Assembly (NCBI RefSeq): GCF_010500995.1 | Contig: NZ_QVMK01000009.1 | Location: 577-64,576, forward strand | From: Bacteroides sp. 224 | GTDB lineage: Bacteria; Bacteroidota; Bacteroidia; Bacteroidales; Bacteroidaceae | Length of the DNA: 64,000 bases | Direction of reading: 5' to 3' | Part shown: piece after piece, positions 2,234 through 9,667 of the stretch | Numbering within the stretch: the first letter of the stretch is position 1 | Layout: each line of letters opens with the position of its first letter | Notes under the pieces: model-generated | The model's input: the letters and a program-made list of their open reading frames with translations, nothing else | What the model was told of the DNA's origin: nothing | Databases searched by the model: none | Position numbers and translations under genes: made by a program

Positions 2234-2261
2234 AAAAAAAGAAGGCGAGTCGCCCCGCCTT
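2234..2261 (-). terminator. Rho-independent terminator of tracrRNA
   Basis: Minus strand: AAGGCG (2261-2256), an 8-nt loop, CGCCTT (2247-2242), then C and a run of seven T (2240-2234). It begins 3 nt after the stop of the upstream plus-strand gene. Confidence 0.85.
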
Positions 2262-2311
2262 AAATGTTTTCACAACGGAATAATCCTTATTGTGACTAGC
2301 TTCAAATGTTT
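2234..2311 (-). ncRNA. tracrRNA of the type II-C CRISPR system
   Basis: On the minus strand, about 2311 to 2287 is an anti-repeat. Its AAACATTTGAAGCTAG...CACAAT pairs with the repeat handle (GTTGTGTATAGCTTTCAAAT...), with a small internal mismatch and one bulged U. It is followed by an AATAA-GGA-TTATT hairpin, CGTTGTGAAAACATT, and a GC hairpin with a T run. This is the usual tracrRNA order: anti-repeat, nexus-like stem, terminator. The gene lies between the PD-(D/E)XK gene and cas9 and runs opposite to cas9. The 5' end is inferred from the promoter box; the 3' end from the terminator. Confidence 0.88.
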
Positions 2312-2314
2312 ACA

Positions 2315-2344
2315 CAAACATAATACTTTTTTTTCTAATTTCAA
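2315..2344 (-). promoter_or_regulatory. tracrRNA promoter
   Basis: Minus strand: TTG at 2344-2342 (within TTTTG), exactly 19 nt, then TATGTTTG at 2322-2315, a perfect TAnnTTTG -7 box. The anti-repeat starts 4-7 nt further on. The same TTG-N19-TAnnTTTG spacing is found in every CRISPR repeat of this locus. The -33 element overlaps the TTG codon at 2348 that would extend the Cas9 frame, which argues against that extended start. Confidence 0.75.
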
Positions 2345-2404
2345 AATTTGATTAAAGAAAAACTATTCTTATATTTCGAATCAAAAAAAGAAAAACTTCA
2401 AAAT

Positions 2405-5400
2405 ATGAAAAATATCTTAGGATTAGATTTAGGTACAAACTCAATAGGGTGGGCATTGGTTCAATCAGATGAAAAATCCAATACAGGAAAAATCATAGCT
2501 GCCAACAGCAGAATAATCCCTATGGATCAAGGAATTATAGGTGACTTCGACAGAGGTAATTCCATATCACAAACAGCAGATCGTACCCAATACAGAGGAA
2601 CCAGACGAATAAGAGAAAGAAGTTTACTTCGCCGTGAACGTTTACATCGAGTACTACATGTTCTATATTTTCTTCCTATCCACTATGCTAATGAAATTGA
2701 TTTCGAAAAAAAGTTAGGTCAATTTAAAAATTATGCTGAGCCTAAAATAAACTACATACAAGAACAAGGAAAAAACATTTTTCTTTTTAGATCTTCTTTT
2801 GAAGAGATGTTGAATGATTTTGCAAAAAACAATTCATTACTCATTGCAGATAATAAAAAAATACCCTACGACTGGACTATTTATTATTTAAGGAACAAAG
2901 CTCTTACTCACAAAATAGAAAAAGAAGAATTAGCCTGGATTATTTTAAACTTCAACCAAAAACGTGGATATTATCAACTTAGAGGAGAAGATGATGAAAA
3001 TGAGAAAGAAGGACAAACTGAGGAGTTTTTCTCTTTAAAAGTTGTAGATGTAATAGATAGTGGAGACAGAAACAAAGACAACATTTGGTATGATGTTATA
3101 TTGGAAAATGATTGGGTATATCGTCGACAAAGTAAGGTTTTCTTAGATTGGAAAGGAAAGACAAAAGACTTTATTGTTACCACACACTATGACAAAGAAG
3201 GAAACATAAAGAAAAGAAGCTTTCGTGCACCTTCTGAGAATGACTGGACTTTACTAAAAAAGAAAACAGAAAAAGATATTGAGAACAGCCAGCAAACTGT
3301 AGGTACTTACATTTATCACTCATTACTTAATAATCCGGAAGTTAAAATCAAAGGGAATTTGGTTAGAACTATTGAAAGAAAATTCTACAGAGAAGAATTA
3401 AAACAAATATTAGACAAACAAAAAGAATTTCATGAGGAATTAAAAAATCGTTCATTATATAGTGCTTGTATCGAAGAATTGTATCCTCGTAACGAAAACC
3501 ATAAAGAAAGTATTAAAGAAAAAGACTTTACTTACTTATTTGTTGATGACATCCTCTTTTATCAACGTCCTTTAAAAAGCAAAAAATCGTCCATTGCAAC
3601 TTGTGCCCTAGAATACCGGATTTATAAAGATAAAGAGGGAAAATATCAAAAAGTGCCAATTAAATGTATTCCAAAATCACATCCTCTTTTTCAAGAATTT
3701 AGGCTATGGCAATTTATTCAGTATCTGAAAATTTATCAAAGAGAAGGTGAAATAGATGGTAAACTTACTACTGATATAGATGTTACTTCCCAATTATTAC
3801 CCACAGAAAAAGATTGGCAGGATTTATACGATTGGCTATGCGAAAAAGCGGAGATCAAACAAGACATATTACTTAAATATCCTAAGTTCGGACTAAAAAA
3901 CAAAGTAAATCAATATCGGTGGAATTATGTAGAAGAAAAAATATATCCTTGCAATGAATTTCATAGCACTGTTCATTCACGTTTACAAAAAGCCGGAATA
4001 CCCAATTTTAATAAAGAAGATGAGCTGGCTTTATGGCATATTTTGTACTCAATAGATGACCGCATAGACCTAACAAAAGCCCTAATTAGCTTTGCCAAAA
4101 AGAAACATTTGCCAGACACATTTGTGGAAATATTCAAGAAATTTCCACCATTAAAAAAAGAATATGGTGCTTATTCTGAGCACGCTATCAAAAAATTACT
4201 TTCACTAATGCGTTTGGGAGAGTATTGGTCGGCCAATAACATTGACAAAAAAACCATGCTACGAATAAACAAAATTATAGATGGGGAATATGATGAAAAT
4301 ATTCGAAACCGAGTACGAGAAAAAGCCATTAACCTAAATACTGTAGAAGATTTTAAAGGGCTCCCCCTTTGGTTGGCTTCCTATATTATATATGACAGAC
4401 ATTCGGAAGCTGGAGAGATATTAAAATGGAACACTCCTGATGATATTGAAAGTTATCTACAGCACTATAAACAACACTCTTTAAGAAATCCAATCGTAGA
4501 GCAAGTTATTACAGAGACCCTTCGAGTAGTAAAAGATATTTGGACTTACTATGGAAAAGGGCAGGAAAACTTCTTTCATGAAATTCACATAGAATTAGGT
4601 CGTGAAATGAAAAACACTGCTGAAAAAAGAAAAAAAATAGCAGACAGAAATGCAACCAACGAAAATACCAATCTACGGATAAAAACATTACTGGCTGAAT
4701 TTAAAGAAAGCGGAGATATAGAGAATGTACGCCCCTACTCTCCTAATCAGCTGGAAATATTTAAGATTTTTGAAGAGGATATCTTGAACTCCGGTATAGA
4801 AATACCCGATGATATTCAAAAAATAGCCCGATCGGCTCAACCTTCCAAAAGCGAAATCATAAAATATAAATTATGGCTGGAACAGAAATACTGTTCTCCT
4901 TATACAGGAATAGTTATTCCATTAAGCAGGTTATTTACCTCAGATTATGAGATAGAACATGTGATCCCCCAATCACGCTATTTTGATGATTCATTAAGTA
5001 ACAAAGTAATCTGCGAAGCAGCCGTTAACAAAGACAAAGCTAATAAACTAGGATATGAATACATTAAAGAGAACAAGGGAAGAATTATTGATATAGGTTT
5101 TGGTCGAACAGCAAAGATCTTTTCTCCAACTGAATATGAAGAATTTATAAAAAACAGATTTAGCCATAATAAAGCTAAAATGAAAAAAATGCTTTTAGAA
5201 GATATTCCTGAATCATTTATTGCCCGACAGTTAAATGACAGTCGTTACATAAGCAAAGCAGTTCAGGGGCTATTATCTGCTATCGTTCGTGAAAAAGAAG
5301 AACAAGAACTTATATCCAAAAACATTGTATCCTGCAATGGAAGTATAACTTCTAGGTTAAAACAAGATTGGGGTATAAATGATGTTTGGAATAGCATTAT

Positions 5401-6868
5401 TACTCTCAGATTTGAAAGATTAAACCAGCTTACAAATAGCAATCAATATGGAGAATGGAAAAATAAGGATGGAAAAAGAGTCTTTCAAATACAAGTTCCA
5501 TTACTCCAACAGAAAGGATTTAATAAAAAAAGAATCGATCACAGGCATCATATCGCGGATTCTATCATTATAGCTTGTGCCACTCGGAATCATGTAAATT
5601 TCCTGAATAATCAATATGCAAAAAGTGATAAAAAACGATATGACTTAAAAAACTCACTATGCGAAAAGGGTAAGTTTAAAAAGCCATGGTTGTCTTTCAC
5701 ACAAGAAACCAAAGAAACAATACTATCTTCCATTGTAAGCTTCAAACAAAATCTCCGTATTATTAATAAAACAGTTAACCACTATTATAAATGGGAGAAA
5801 GATGAAAACGGAGTTTACAAGAAAACACTCCAACGGCAAATAAAAGGAGATTCCTGGGCTATACGCAAGCCCATGCATAAAGAAACTTTGTATGGAAGAA
5901 TCACATTGCGTAATAAAAAGGAAGTGAACTTATCAGTTGCTTTAGATGATTGGAAATCGTTGGTAGATAAAATATTAAAGACCGAGATTAAAAGACTCAT
6001 CGCAGCCTATGGGAAATTCGACAAGAAAACAATACTCAAGTATTTTAAGGATAGAGAGAATAAACTGAATGGAAAAGATATTTCCAAAGTAAAGATATAT
6101 ATCTTCAATTCTGAAAACGCTGTATCAAGAACCTCCTTAAATACTGATTTTAATTCAAAGAAAATAGAATCTGTAGTTAATGAGGGAATCCAAAAGATTC
6201 TATCAAAACACCTCTCTACTTATAATGAAATAAAAAATGGAAAAACGATAGAGCATCCTGAACTTGCGTTCTCTCCAGATGGTATAGATGAATTAAATAG
6301 AAATATTCTTGAATTAAATAATGGGAAACATCACAAACCTATTCATAAAGTCCGTACATACGAACCTATTGGAAATAAATTTAGAGTAGGTTATAATGGA
6401 AACAAGAAAAATAATTATGTAGAAGCAGCTAAAGGGACTAATCTCTTCTTTGCTATTTATCAAAATGAAAATGGCAAACGAAGTTATGAAACCATTCCTC
6501 TCAATCTTGTAATTGAAAGACAAAAACAAGGGTTAACTTCTGTACCTGAACGAAATGAGAAAGGAGCCACACTATTATTTTCATTATCTCCTAATGATTT
6601 AGTTTATGTACCTACAGTAGAAGAAGTAGAAGTTGGACAAATTGATTGGGCAGATAAAAAGAAAGTGGCGGAAAGGGTTTATAAGATGGTTAGTTGTACT
6701 CAAGGAGAGTTCCATTGTATACCTTATCACATAGCAACTCCTATTATTAAAAATATCGAATTAGGCTCCAACAATAAATCTGAAAGAGCATGGAGCGGAG
6801 AAATGATCAAGCAAAACTGTATTCCCATTTTAATCGATAGATTAGGCAACATAAAACAAAAATTATGA
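2405..6868 (+). CDS. cas9: CRISPR-associated endonuclease Cas9, type II-C
   Basis: 1487 residues from ATG 2405, within the size range of Bacteroidetes type II-C Cas9. RuvC-I is MKNILGLDLGTNSIGW with D8. An arginine-rich bridge helix follows (YRGTRRIRERSLLRRERLHR). RuvC-II has E730 in HIELGREM. HNH has H852 in EHVIPQS and N875 in AAVNKDKAN. RuvC-III has H1049 and D1052 in HRHHIADS. All key nuclease residues are therefore present and the enzyme should be active. An in-frame TTG at 2348 would add 19 residues but lies on the tracrRNA promoter, so ATG is preferred. The stop overlaps the cas1 start (ATGA). The C-terminal PAM-interacting part is not assignable from sequence alone. Confidence 0.97.
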   Translation: MKNILGLDLGTNSIGWALVQSDEKSNTGKIIAANSRIIPMDQGIIGDFDRGNSISQTADRTQYRGTRRIRERSLLRRERLHRVLHVLYFLPIHYANEIDFEKKLGQFKNYAEPKINYIQEQGKNIFLFRSSFEEMLNDFAKNNSLLIADNKKIPYDWTIYYLRNKALTHKIEKEELAWIILNFNQKRGYYQLRGEDDENEKEGQTEEFFSLKVVDVIDSGDRNKDNIWYDVILENDWVYRRQSKVFLDWKGKTKDFIVTTHYDKEGNIKKRSFRAPSENDWTLLKKKTEKDIENSQQTVGTYIYHSLLNNPEVKIKGNLVRTIERKFYREELKQILDKQKEFHEELKNRSLYSACIEELYPRNENHKESIKEKDFTYLFVDDILFYQRPLKSKKSSIATCALEYRIYKDKEGKYQKVPIKCIPKSHPLFQEFRLWQFIQYLKIYQREGEIDGKLTTDIDVTSQLLPTEKDWQDLYDWLCEKAEIKQDILLKYPKFGLKNKVNQYRWNYVEEKIYPCNEFHSTVHSRLQKAGIPNFNKEDELALWHILYSIDDRIDLTKALISFAKKKHLPDTFVEIFKKFPPLKKEYGAYSEHAIKKLLSLMRLGEYWSANNIDKKTMLRINKIIDGEYDENIRNRVREKAINLNTVEDFKGLPLWLASYIIYDRHSEAGEILKWNTPDDIESYLQHYKQHSLRNPIVEQVITETLRVVKDIWTYYGKGQENFFHEIHIELGREMKNTAEKRKKIADRNATNENTNLRIKTLLAEFKESGDIENVRPYSPNQLEIFKIFEEDILNSGIEIPDDIQKIARSAQPSKSEIIKYKLWLEQKYCSPYTGIVIPLSRLFTSDYEIEHVIPQSRYFDDSLSNKVICEAAVNKDKANKLGYEYIKENKGRIIDIGFGRTAKIFSPTEYEEFIKNRFSHNKAKMKKMLLEDIPESFIARQLNDSRYISKAVQGLLSAIVREKEEQELISKNIVSCNGSITSRLKQDWGINDVWNSIITLRFERLNQLTNSNQYGEWKNKDGKRVFQIQVPLLQQKGFNKKRIDHRHHIADSIIIACATRNHVNFLNNQYAKSDKKRYDLKNSLCEKGKFKKPWLSFTQETKETILSSIVSFKQNLRIINKTVNHYYKWEKDENGVYKKTLQRQIKGDSWAIRKPMHKETLYGRITLRNKKEVNLSVALDDWKSLVDKILKTEIKRLIAAYGKFDKKTILKYFKDRENKLNGKDISKVKIYIFNSENAVSRTSLNTDFNSKKIESVVNEGIQKILSKHLSTYNEIKNGKTIEHPELAFSPDGIDELNRNILELNNGKHHKPIHKVRTYEPIGNKFRVGYNGNKKNNYVEAAKGTNLFFAIYQNENGKRSYETIPLNLVIERQKQGLTSVPERNEKGATLLFSLSPNDLVYVPTVEEVEVGQIDWADKKKVAERVYKMVSCTQGEFHCIPYHIATPIIKNIELGSNNKSERAWSGEMIKQNCIPILIDRLGNIKQKL

Positions 6869-7800
6869 TAAAGAAAACGCTCTATTTTGGAAATCCAACC
6901 TACTTATCTCTAACAAATGAGCAACTTATAATAAAATTGCCAGAAGTAGAGAAAAATAATACAGTCCCCGAATCATTCAAAAAAGAAATGATAAAAACAA
7001 TTCCTATTGAAGATATTGGAGTTATTATCTTGGATCATAAGCAAATTACTATCACTCAAGGCTTATTAGAGAAACTTCTGGATAATAATTGTGCTGTAAT
7101 AACTTGCAGCAGCAATAGAATGCCTATTGGTCTCCTATTACCATTATGTGGAAATAATACTCAAAATGAAAGATTTACAGATCAAATAAACGCTTCTCTC
7201 CCCATAAAAAAACAATTATGGCAACAAACTATTAAACAAAAAATAGAAAACCAAGCCGTCGTTCTTCATAAAAACAGAAAAATAACGATTAAAAACATGC
7301 TGGTTTGGGCTAAAGATGTAAAAAGTGGAGACCCAGATAATTACGAAGCACGTGCTGCTGCTTATTACTGGAAAACAATATTCCCTAATATACCTGAATT
7401 CACAAGAGACCGAGAAGGAATACCTCCCAACAATTTGCTAAATTATGGTTATGCTATCCTTCGTGCAGTAGTAGCTCGTTCTCTTGTTTCAAGTGGTTTG
7501 TTGCCAACTTTAGGTATTCATCATCACAACAAATATAATGCTTACTGCTTGGCTGATGATATAATGGAACCTTATCGTCCGTTTGTAGATCAACTTGTTA
7601 TTGATATCATAAACAACACACCAGATTATCAAGTATTAACCACAGATGTGAAAAGCAAATTATTAAGCATCCCTGTGCTTGATGTTAAGATTAATGGCAA
7701 ACGAAGCCCTTTAATGATTGCAGTAGGTCAGACTACAGCATCACTATATAAGTGTTTTTCTGGAGAGATTAGGAAAATAATCTATCCTACTATGACTTAG
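6865..7800 (+). CDS. cas1: CRISPR integrase subunit Cas1, type II
   Basis: 311 residues, normal for type II Cas1. With Cas2 it captures and integrates new spacers. The motif NLLNYGYAILRAVVARSLVSSGLLPTLG and the following GIHHHNKYNAY segment carry the conserved C-terminal helical active-site residues (E/H/D type) of Cas1. The start codon overlaps the cas9 stop by four bases, so translation is probably coupled. cas2 follows 6 nt after the stop. Type II-C loci characteristically carry only cas9, cas1 and cas2, as here. Confidence 0.95.
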   Translation: MIKKTLYFGNPTYLSLTNEQLIIKLPEVEKNNTVPESFKKEMIKTIPIEDIGVIILDHKQITITQGLLEKLLDNNCAVITCSSNRMPIGLLLPLCGNNTQNERFTDQINASLPIKKQLWQQTIKQKIENQAVVLHKNRKITIKNMLVWAKDVKSGDPDNYEARAAAYYWKTIFPNIPEFTRDREGIPPNNLLNYGYAILRAVVARSLVSSGLLPTLGIHHHNKYNAYCLADDIMEPYRPFVDQLVIDIINNTPDYQVLTTDVKSKLLSIPVLDVKINGKRSPLMIAVGQTTASLYKCFSGEIRKIIYPTMT

Positions 7801-8139
<339 letters not shown>

Positions 8140-8230
8140 CAAAAATAGAATTGTTAATTTTACATAAACGTCTATTTGGGTTTAAAGTTTTAAATTCAAC
8201 ATGACACATACAAAGCTTCTATATAAAAAG

Positions 8231-8255
8231 AAATCTGATCTAAAAGATCAGATTT
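8231..8255. terminator. Hairpin between cas2 and the CRISPR array
   Basis: A perfect 10-bp inverted repeat, AAATCTGATC - 5 nt - GATCAGATTT. It lies between two converging transcription units, the cas operon on plus and the crRNA units on minus, and could terminate either one. The T tract is short, so termination is inferred from position and symmetry. The rest of 8140-8332 shows no gene. Confidence 0.5.
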
Positions 8256-8332
8256 ACATTAAAGAACAGCCTCATTTTATAATTGTAAAACCCTTCATAA
8301 AAACCTGAATAACAAGCGATTAATCAACTTGT

Positions 8333-9667
8333 GCTGTTCCTAATGGAACAAAGATAAACATTTGAAAGCTATACACAACACTCAGAGCGTGTGGCGTCCT
8401 GCCGCTTCAGCTGTTCCTAATGGAACAAAGATAAACATTTGAAAGCTATACACAACCTGCATTCACACCACGTGAATTGATGCAAGGCTGTTCCTAATGG
8501 AACAAAGATAAACATTTGAAAGCTATACACAACATGAACAACAAAAAGAAATTAATCAAAAAAGCTGTTCCTAATGGAACAAAGATAAACATTTGAAAGC
8601 TATACACAACTGCAGCCTCCATTACTATTTCGCGAGTAATGCTGTTCCTAATGGAACAAAGATAAACATTTGAAAGCTATACACAACATGCTGCTGTAGT
8701 CCAAGTGTTAGCTGGAGGCTGTTCCTAATGGAACAAAGATAAACATTTGAAAGCTATACACAACTATAGCGATAGTCTCTACTTGCGAGGTACTGCTGTT
8801 CCTAATGGAACAAAGATAAACATTTGAAAGCTATACACAACTTTCAAGAACACCACTATCCACCCATTCAGCTGTTCCTAATGGAACAAAGATAAACATT
8901 TGAAAGCTATACACAACGTTCGATCAATGTATACTATATAAGACATTGCTGTTCCTAATGGAACAAAGATAAACATTTGAAAGCTATACACAACTTGATC
9001 TGTTTGCGGATATGGCTCCTATTAGCTGTTCCTAATGGAACAAAGATAAACATTTGAAAGCTATACACAACATTCTCCCCGTTGTAGTTCTGAACTCGTT
9101 GCTGTTCCTAATGGAACAAAGATAAACATTTGAAAGCTATACACAACATTTTGCCGACCGCAGGCTATCTATAGTCGCTGTTCCTAATGGAACAAAGATA
9201 AACATTTGAAAGCTATACACAACAACAAATTATATGGAACAAAAAGATGATGGGCTGTTCCTAATGGAACAAAGATAAACATTTGAAAGCTATACACAAC
9301 TACGCGCGCTGTAACAGTGTGCGATATGCGCTGTTCCTAATGGAACAAAGATAAACATTTGAAAGCTATACACAACAGTTTACTTAACACATAGCCACGT
9401 TTAACTGCTGTTCCTAATGGAACAAAGATAAACATTTGAAAGCTATACACAACGTTGTGGAAGAATAATAATTGATTTTTTTGCTGTTCCTAATGGAACA
9501 AAGATAAACATTTGAAAGCTATACACAACCGAGATTATGTGTACTTCTCTCGTATGCCCGCTGTTCCTAATGGAACAAAGATAAACATTTGAAAGCTATA
9601 CACAACGATCAACCCTATTCACTATCAGAATCAGGAGCTGTTCCTAATGGAACAAAGATAAACATTT
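8333..9667 (-). CRISPR. Type II-C CRISPR array, 17 full repeats plus one truncated, 17 spacers
   Basis: On the plus strand the 47-bp repeat begins GCTGTTCCTAATGG and ends GCTATACACAAC. Repeats start at 8333, 8410, 8487, 8564, 8641, 8718, 8795, 8871, 8948, 9025, 9101, 9177, 9254, 9330, 9407, 9483 and 9560, and read as identical. A truncated copy at 9637-9667 keeps the first 31 plus-strand bases. Spacers are 29 or 30 nt (17 in all) and all differ. Read on the minus strand the repeat begins GTTGTGTATAGC, matching the tracrRNA anti-repeat, so crRNAs are transcribed right to left toward the cas genes. The truncated repeat is at the upstream end in that direction. Confidence 0.98.
9653..9660 (-). 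promoter_or_regulatory. -7 box kept in the truncated terminal repeat (promoter motif present in every repeat)
   Basis: On the minus strand every full repeat has TTG at repeat bases 2-4, 19 nt, then TATCTTTG at bases 24-31, with 16 bases left before the spacer. This equals the Bacteroidetes promoter consensus. The truncated copy retains TATCTTTG but has no TTG at 19-21 nt upstream. Transcription would start near the repeat end and enter the neighbouring spacer. Repeat-borne promoters are established for Neisseria type II-C arrays; their use here is inferred. Confidence 0.6.

Follow-up and report, generated by a model that had tools for sequence, protein, structure and literature searches.

How the individual spacers of a CRISPR (clustered regularly interspaced short palindromic repeats) array come to be transcribed is the question raised by a locus of Bacteroides sp. 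224, found in the 64,000-nucleotide stretch of DNA analyzed here (the window). The locus is a complete type II-C CRISPR-Cas system with cas9, a type II cas1, cas2, and a trans-activating CRISPR RNA (tracrRNA) holding an anti-repeat (Table 1). A first-pass annotation had proposed that every repeat of the array carries a Bacteroidetes-type promoter aimed at the neighboring spacer. Our analysis indicates that the motif is real and that its conservation, judged by sequence comparison, is what would be expected of a promoter. In our judgment the best explanation, and quite probably the right one, is that the repeats bear a Bacteroidota promoter from which transcription proceeds toward cas2.

Read on the minus strand, the repeat is GTTGTGTATAGCTTTCAAATGTTTATCTTTGTTCCATTAGGAACAGC, with TTG at bases 2-4, a gap of 19 nt (N19), and TATCTTTG at bases 24-31. 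This arrangement, as originally described, is found in all 17 full repeats, which follow each other at 76-77 nt from start to start. The host promoter consensus therefore lies on the CRISPR RNA (crRNA) strand in 17/17 full repeats, matching what defines the repeat-borne promoters of type II-C systems. The truncated 18th copy, from which the annotated end at 9667 derives, retains the box and lacks the TTG and most of the tracrRNA-pairing part; the full motif is present in 17/18 repeats, and the claim made for every repeat stood for the full copies and not for this one. As estimated from whole-genome counts, the chance of one TTG-N19-TAnnTTTG in a given 47-mer is about 1 in 1000, and the 17 identical copies count as one chance event, not 17. 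It is the survey of related repeats, not the array alone, that appears to lift the motif above chance.

Relatives of the Cas9 were taken from the best 80 named genome contigs and from genomes searched at the level of class (395), order (393), and phylum (395). Cas9 matches were present in 64, 47, and 51 of these genomes, respectively, and 120 stretches were taken from them. With a simple array finder, 110/160 first loci, plus the window, and 35/40 later loci yielded a usable array. Repeats were collapsed to distinct sequences with one array per locus, which removes most genomes present twice. This left 105 distinct repeats, 97 of them of 46-48 bp, with a few of 36, 44, 45, and 49 bp among these 105 and the 122 obtained with the later loci. 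L070, with an array consensus that the finder had cut, was left out, as was a 37-nt tandem repeat, the second one in L131. L284 was wrongly oriented and counted as a miss among the 122; a one-mismatch box does exist on its other strand. The repeats were oriented by likeness to the window repeat, which could favor the motif; the strand choice is independently supported, since in 92/112 loci the tracrRNA has its AAGG immediately after the anti-repeat that is complementary to the chosen strand.

In most 46-48-bp repeats, the motif stands in the register TTG(2-4)-N18..22-TAnnTTTG, with the box starting at base 23-27. It was exact in 63/105 distinct repeats and present within one mismatch in 90/105. 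Dinucleotide shuffles of everything past base 4 (200 rounds) gave an exact mean of 1.35 (maximum 5) and a one-mismatch mean of 19.7 (maximum 30). With the later loci added, the counts were 66/122 and 101/122, and the conservation in related repeats that had been put forward as a check was thus observed. After similarity weighting, the effective number of the 105 repeats is about 35. The TTG at bases 2-4 was rejected as independent evidence and is weak evidence alone, because it is nearly universal (120/122) and also opens 12/15 of the mostly box-less repeats that accompany compact Cas9 proteins in this phylum.

Exact repeat boxes go with the lineages that have exact tracrRNA boxes: in Bacteroidales, 53/66 repeats and 47/53 tracrRNAs are exact, versus 11/39 and 18/35 in the others, orders being assigned from record titles and kinship labels, with named records not placed elsewhere taken as Bacteroidales. 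A universal exact box was rejected on these figures. Several lineages (L147, L148, L149, L151, L162, and L223) have a box with G in first place (GATCTTTG), and the tracrRNA boxes of L148, L149, L151, and L162 are off consensus too.

The promoter code of the host was read from 400 kb of the same genome together with the window, its array masked (464 kb), including 203 intergenic stretches upstream of long frames. In these upstream regions, TAnnTTTG was the XXnnXXXX pattern with the largest excess over the opposite strand (111 versus 49), and among the triplets at a distance of exactly 19 nt on its upstream side TTG came first (17/102; the next had 5). Over both strands of the 464 kb, the TTG-to-box spacing peaked at N19 (45 versus 13 in the control), followed by N20 (24 versus 10) and N21 (15 versus 6). 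TTG-N19-TAnnTTTG occurs at 258 sites in the whole genome, the 17 repeats included, and its reversed-pattern control at 87. The commonest middle pair nn in the genome's own promoter-like sites is TC (11/35), the same as in the window repeat. Given the N19 peak, the TAnnTTTG excess, and the TC pair, the repeat has the genome's commonest spacing and box, and the annotated Bacteroides -33/-7 consensus with normal spacing agrees with what the genome itself favors. A pyrimidine right after TTTG is found in 26/28 own sites and 60/68 tracrRNAs, and the window repeat keeps to this rule with a T. Outside the array, the first 12 kb hold the strict pattern with N17-22 at the tracrRNA, in the stretches preceding the frames at 1164 and 10585, and at one site at 2068.

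Among the repeats, the middle pair varies (TC, CC, AA, TT, AC, CA, CT, AT, TA). When 34 disjoint pairs of similar repeats were compared, at least one member of each having an exact box, TA and TTTG differed at 12/204 sites versus 11/68 for nn (p=0.012), and the tail between the box and the last five bases differed at 119/367. The repeat of L065, a Mediterranea metagenome-assembled genome (MAG) whose Cas9 is 70% alike in the best segment, is identical to the window repeat over bases 1-31 and differs at 6 of the last 16. That the positions left free by the sigma consensus are also free in the repeats probably reflects a promoter constraint rather than simple inheritance.

The oldest repeats allowed a second comparison of this kind. 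Such a repeat lies upstream in the crRNA direction and gives no useful crRNA, and it should not be an insertion template, since insertion takes place at the cas2 end if the polarity described in the available text on Riemerella anatipestifer (PMC6008519) holds. From 111 loci, 50 distinct cases were kept (33 decayed copies upstream of the array and 17 changed first full repeats), because a case had to have a real tail, an altered oldest repeat, and a box with at most one mismatch. The outer, pairing part was decayed, mismatches amounting to 107/200 at bases 1-4 and 213/600 at bases 5-16; the other counts were 5/100 at TA, 11/100 at nn, 3/200 at TTTG, and 26/756 after the box. The nn pair was mutated more than TA and TTTG (p=0.0018) and more than the after-box part (p=0.002). 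This contrast is the informative part, as decay that proceeds inward from the outside would on its own leave the inner half intact. In a Saprospiraceae MAG (L122), the box is shifted, with TATATTTG at bases 32-39; the last changed base of its oldest copy, which fell below the likeness cut-off for the 50, is base 30, and the repeat is kept from base 31 on, the shifted TATATTTG included, in what is a single case.

Comparative evidence supports the proposed minus-strand direction, in which transcription would run toward cas2. TAnnTTTG was found on the opposite strand of 0/105 repeats. Terminator-like hairpins were present on the crRNA strand of 48/105 leaders, versus 10 on the opposite strand and 8 in shuffled leaders. 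Perfect stems (length at least 8) occurred in 49/105 leaders and were centered 80-99 nt past the last repeat in 33/49, with 3/76 in control stretches. At the window locus, the decayed repeat lies upstream and the leader terminator downstream in the crRNA direction. The predicted promoter of the newest repeat would have only the leader in front of it and no spacer, and a spacer-less RNA of about 120 nt would extend to the terminator (window 8223-8344).

A different view would be that one outside promoter transcribes the array and that TATCTTTG is inherited and functionless. The start sites are predicted ones, the pyrimidine after the box is absent in 36/64 repeats, and the counts share ancestry, all of which would suit such a view. 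Strict promoters upstream of arrays, however, stood at background (6/77, versus 6/77 on the opposite strand), a search of limited power that would miss most promoters, because only 35/203 gene upstream regions hold the strict pattern (14/203 on the opposite strand). An external promoter driving the arrays was rejected as a candidate on this lack of enrichment. Promoters leading from the leader into the array were found in 1/105 leaders. At the window array, the 760 nt upstream held no promoter with one box mismatch allowed. Fixed and free positions moreover evolve differently, both in the pairs and in the oldest repeats, and we consider an outside promoter unlikely.

The box could also be kept as a DNA signal for spacer integration by Cas1-Cas2, an anchor or ruler in the repeat, as repeats are integration substrates and the box lies near their middle. 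Yet TA and TTTG stay in the oldest repeat, which is not expected to be a template (following the portion available of PMC6008519), while nn and the outer half change; the degeneracy of the box fits a sigma consensus, and the compact II-C repeats of the same phylum mostly do without the box (1/15 exact, 3/15 within one mismatch). This makes an integration signal quite unlikely.

Among canonical tracrRNAs, 68/92 have their own TAnnTTTG at most 40 nt upstream, placed 2-6 nt before the anti-repeat in 63/68. Conservation for tracrRNA pairing or for a crRNA hairpin is very unlikely: TA does lie at the edge of anti-repeat pairing in many loci, but of the 80 loci that combine a canonical tracrRNA with a box at most one mismatch off, each counted against its own box, 77 had no TTTG base within contiguous pairing and 3 had one, so that pairing does not explain TTTG, and the part after the box, palindromic in the window, is poorly conserved (bases 32-42, 0.03-0.45 bits).

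Several observations weigh against the repeat-borne promoter. Counted by itself over the 464 kb, with genes included, the box barely exceeds its control (587 versus 545), and N18, which occurs in 24/63 exact-motif repeats, is not enriched in the host genome (9 versus 13). The pyrimidine after TTTG is present in only 28/64 exact-box repeats, A being commonest (33), and the window repeat lacks the next purine, which 24/28 own sites have. A purine at the predicted +1 seemed promising in a gapped alignment (base 36); it was not used as support because the box-anchored profile gave no clear enrichment. TA and TTTG are not more conserved in the pairs than the pairing bases 5-16 (32/408; p=0.41), and TTTG does not differ significantly from the tail in the oldest repeats (p=0.24). 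There, the -33 TTG is lost in 38/50, and compensation by a replacement TTG at the right distance was rejected (9/38, against a background of about 14%). Boxes are weaker outside Bacteroidales, and an exact box in this register was found in 0/12 distinct repeats of named Flavobacteriales, Cytophagales, Sphingobacteriales, Chitinophagales, and Saprospiraceae. Finally, repeats share ancestry, which makes the counts not independent, several tests were chosen after seeing the data, and the promoter mechanism, deduced here from sequence comparison, is no more than likely.

What was observed is the motif, the pattern of its conservation, its survival in decayed repeats, hairpins resembling terminators, and no excess of outside promoters. 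To account for this, we propose that each full repeat would act as a primary Bacteroidota sigma promoter (-33 TTG, 19 nt, -7 TAnnTTTG) on the minus strand, firing into the next spacer. The sigma-A box is placed at -12 to -5 in the text available for Flavobacterium psychrophilum (PMC9723704), and by this geometry the predicted start is repeat base 36, which would leave 12 nt of repeat sequence on the RNA ahead of the spacer. A start within the spacer, as in Neisseria, is thus not what the prediction gives, and the statement that the 5' side would need no pre-crRNA processing was not supported, unlike the Bacteroidota type, minus direction, normal spacing, and conservation of the promoter. Transcripts would continue through later units toward cas2 and end at the leader terminator; the tracrRNA, from its promoter of the same layout, would pair with repeat bases 2 to about 25, and the RNA would then be processed. 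Sigma binding, start sites, RNA lengths, and processing are what we infer. New spacers would enter at the cas2 end, if as in R. anatipestifer, which is the downstream end of the transcripts, and with a promoter in every repeat the newest spacer could be expressed without transcribing the whole array.

Repeat-borne promoters are said to have been described in 2013, by Zhang and by Dugar, in the type II-C systems of Neisseria meningitidis and Campylobacter jejuni, whose 36-bp repeats reportedly have a sigma-70 type -10 element at the 3' end, with the start in the spacer and no 5' trimming of the crRNA. The window differs in its 47-bp repeat, its Bacteroidota -33/-7 elements, which the annotation had rightly described as an unrelated sigma consensus, and its predicted start 12 nt before the spacer. 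Such promoters are treated as established for type II-C in the available part of PMC12080349, and the likeness to Neisseria and Campylobacter would include the II-C locus, promoters borne by the individual repeats, transcripts running toward the acquisition end, and an oldest repeat more mutated than the others (PMC12080349, PMC8092290, PMC5006608, as far as their available text goes). Closer to Bacteroides, a TTG located 33 bp ahead of each spacer has been suggested to serve as the -33 element in the II-C system of Flavobacterium columnare, where eight reads support a direction toward the leader (Hoikkala 2021, PMC8092290). The accessible text of that article names only the TTG; TAnnTTTG in the repeat, the spacing, its conservation, and retention in decayed repeats were not found there. 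For F. psychrophilum, a promoter is again said to be embedded in each repeat, with a TTG, and TAnnTTTG is named, in the sections available, only for the cas9 promoter and not for the repeat (PMC10309648). The R. anatipestifer II-C system resembles the window in its 47-bp repeats and a palindrome in the leader and differs in that its repeats are stated in print to hold no promoter (PMC5006608, PMC6008519, in part). Long repeats, up to 48 bp, mark the II-C systems of Bacteroidetes according to the available text of PMC5704556. TAnnTTTG and CRISPR are mentioned together in PMC10309648 and PMC7366714, and neither, in its accessible portion, puts the box in a repeat. Repeat-borne promoters in II-C and the TTG proposal in Flavobacterium are therefore known; a -7 box within the repeat was not found in the literature searched, whose coverage mostly excludes subscription papers.

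A contrast group was formed by loci of the same phylum with a Cas9 frame of 1029-1179 aa, which have 36-bp repeats (one of 44). At the 3' end of these repeats (bases 31-36), TTG(9-11)-N19-TAnnTT was found in 6/14 distinct 36-bp repeats, against a shuffle mean of 0.2 and a maximum of 2 in 500 rounds, in a post hoc test. Loci L248, L249, L251, L253, L258, and L259 have TTG at 9-11, 19 nt, and TAnnTT at the very 3' end, and L254, L278, and L279 have the same layout with GAnnTT. In another post hoc comparison, TTG(9-11)-N17..20 followed by a box at about 29-39 occurred in 5/16 repeats without the first register versus 2/89 (p=0.0008). The 36-bp register is a lead, not a result; if it is true, the spacer would supply the final two bases of the box and would also contain the start. 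That Bacteroidota II-C repeats are built round a movable, fixed-spacing promoter placed in different registers is a tentative idea that we find rather doubtful; if true, the promoter register would set repeat length and the crRNA 5' end.

Within the locus (Table 1), the three cas models were all matched above cut-off, in consecutive genes. No further cas gene was found in the operon and no other frame of at least 90 aa between cas9 and the array; the frame upstream of cas9 (1164-2231) had no match to any NCBIfam model. The tracrRNA lies on the minus strand a short way upstream of cas9, from a promoter that does have the layout of the repeats, as annotated, and its anti-repeat, complementary to repeat bases 2-25 with one gap, marks the minus strand as the crRNA strand. 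The tracrRNA and cas9 promoters are apparently back-to-back (window 2342-2377), the minus-strand TTG standing 3 bp from a plus-strand TTG (2348-2350). Beyond the latter, with 19 nt between them, comes TATATTTC, which departs from the box at a single position. By analogy with R. anatipestifer, in which new spacers are inserted between cas2 and the first repeat according to the available text of PMC6008519, the leader may be the site of new-spacer insertion. Elsewhere in the survey, the locus L215 contains a pair of short arrays, and their repeats are distinguished by a few bases ahead of the box; in L126 (6349-9697), the array was found upstream of cas9 rather than after it.

Table 1. Features of the type II-C locus, in window positions; a is the plus-strand start of a full repeat.
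Feature	Position	Strand	Details
cas9	2405..6868	+	1487 aa; TIGR01865
cas1	6865..7800	+	TIGR03639, type II
cas2	7807..8139	+	TIGR01573
tracrRNA promoter	2315..2344	-	TTG-N19-TATGTTTG; TTG 2344-2342, box 2322-2315
tracrRNA	2243..2312	-	anti-repeat 2312-2290, TAAGG, predicted terminator stem 2260-2243, T-run; predicted start 2310
Leader between cas2 and array	8140..8332	not assigned	
Intrinsic terminator in leader	8231..8255	-	stem-loop then CTTTTTATAT; begins 78 nt past newest repeat
CRISPR array	8333..9606	-	17 identical 47-bp repeats and 16 spacers of 29-30 nt
Full repeats, starts a	8333, 8410, 8487, 8564, 8641, 8718, 8795, 8871, 8948, 9025, 9101, 9177, 9254, 9330, 9407, 9483, 9560		plus-strand starts
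Elements within each full repeat		-	-33 TTG a+43..a+45, -7 box a+16..a+23, predicted start a+11
Newest, leader-proximal repeat	8333..8379	-	TTG 8376-8378, box 8349-8356, predicted start 8344
Oldest complete repeat	9560..9606	-	TTG 9603-9605, TATCTTTG box 9576-9583, predicted start 9571
Truncated 18th repeat, cas-distal end	9637..9667	-	bases 17-47 only; box 9653-9660, predicted start 9648

A promoter in each repeat would give a testable rule for the expression of CRISPR memory in a major gut phylum, each memory having its own promoter. If true, it would account for the newest spacer being able to be expressed from its place at the transcript's far end, and would offer a reason for the oldest repeat keeping one half and losing the other. 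It might also question the published statement that Riemerella repeats are promoter-less; the tool behind that check is said not to have been built for this phylum. To our knowledge, the Bacteroidota sigma code is not expected to be read by the RNA polymerase of Escherichia coli, and the finding may bear on the transfer of Bacteroidota Cas9 arrays into other hosts.
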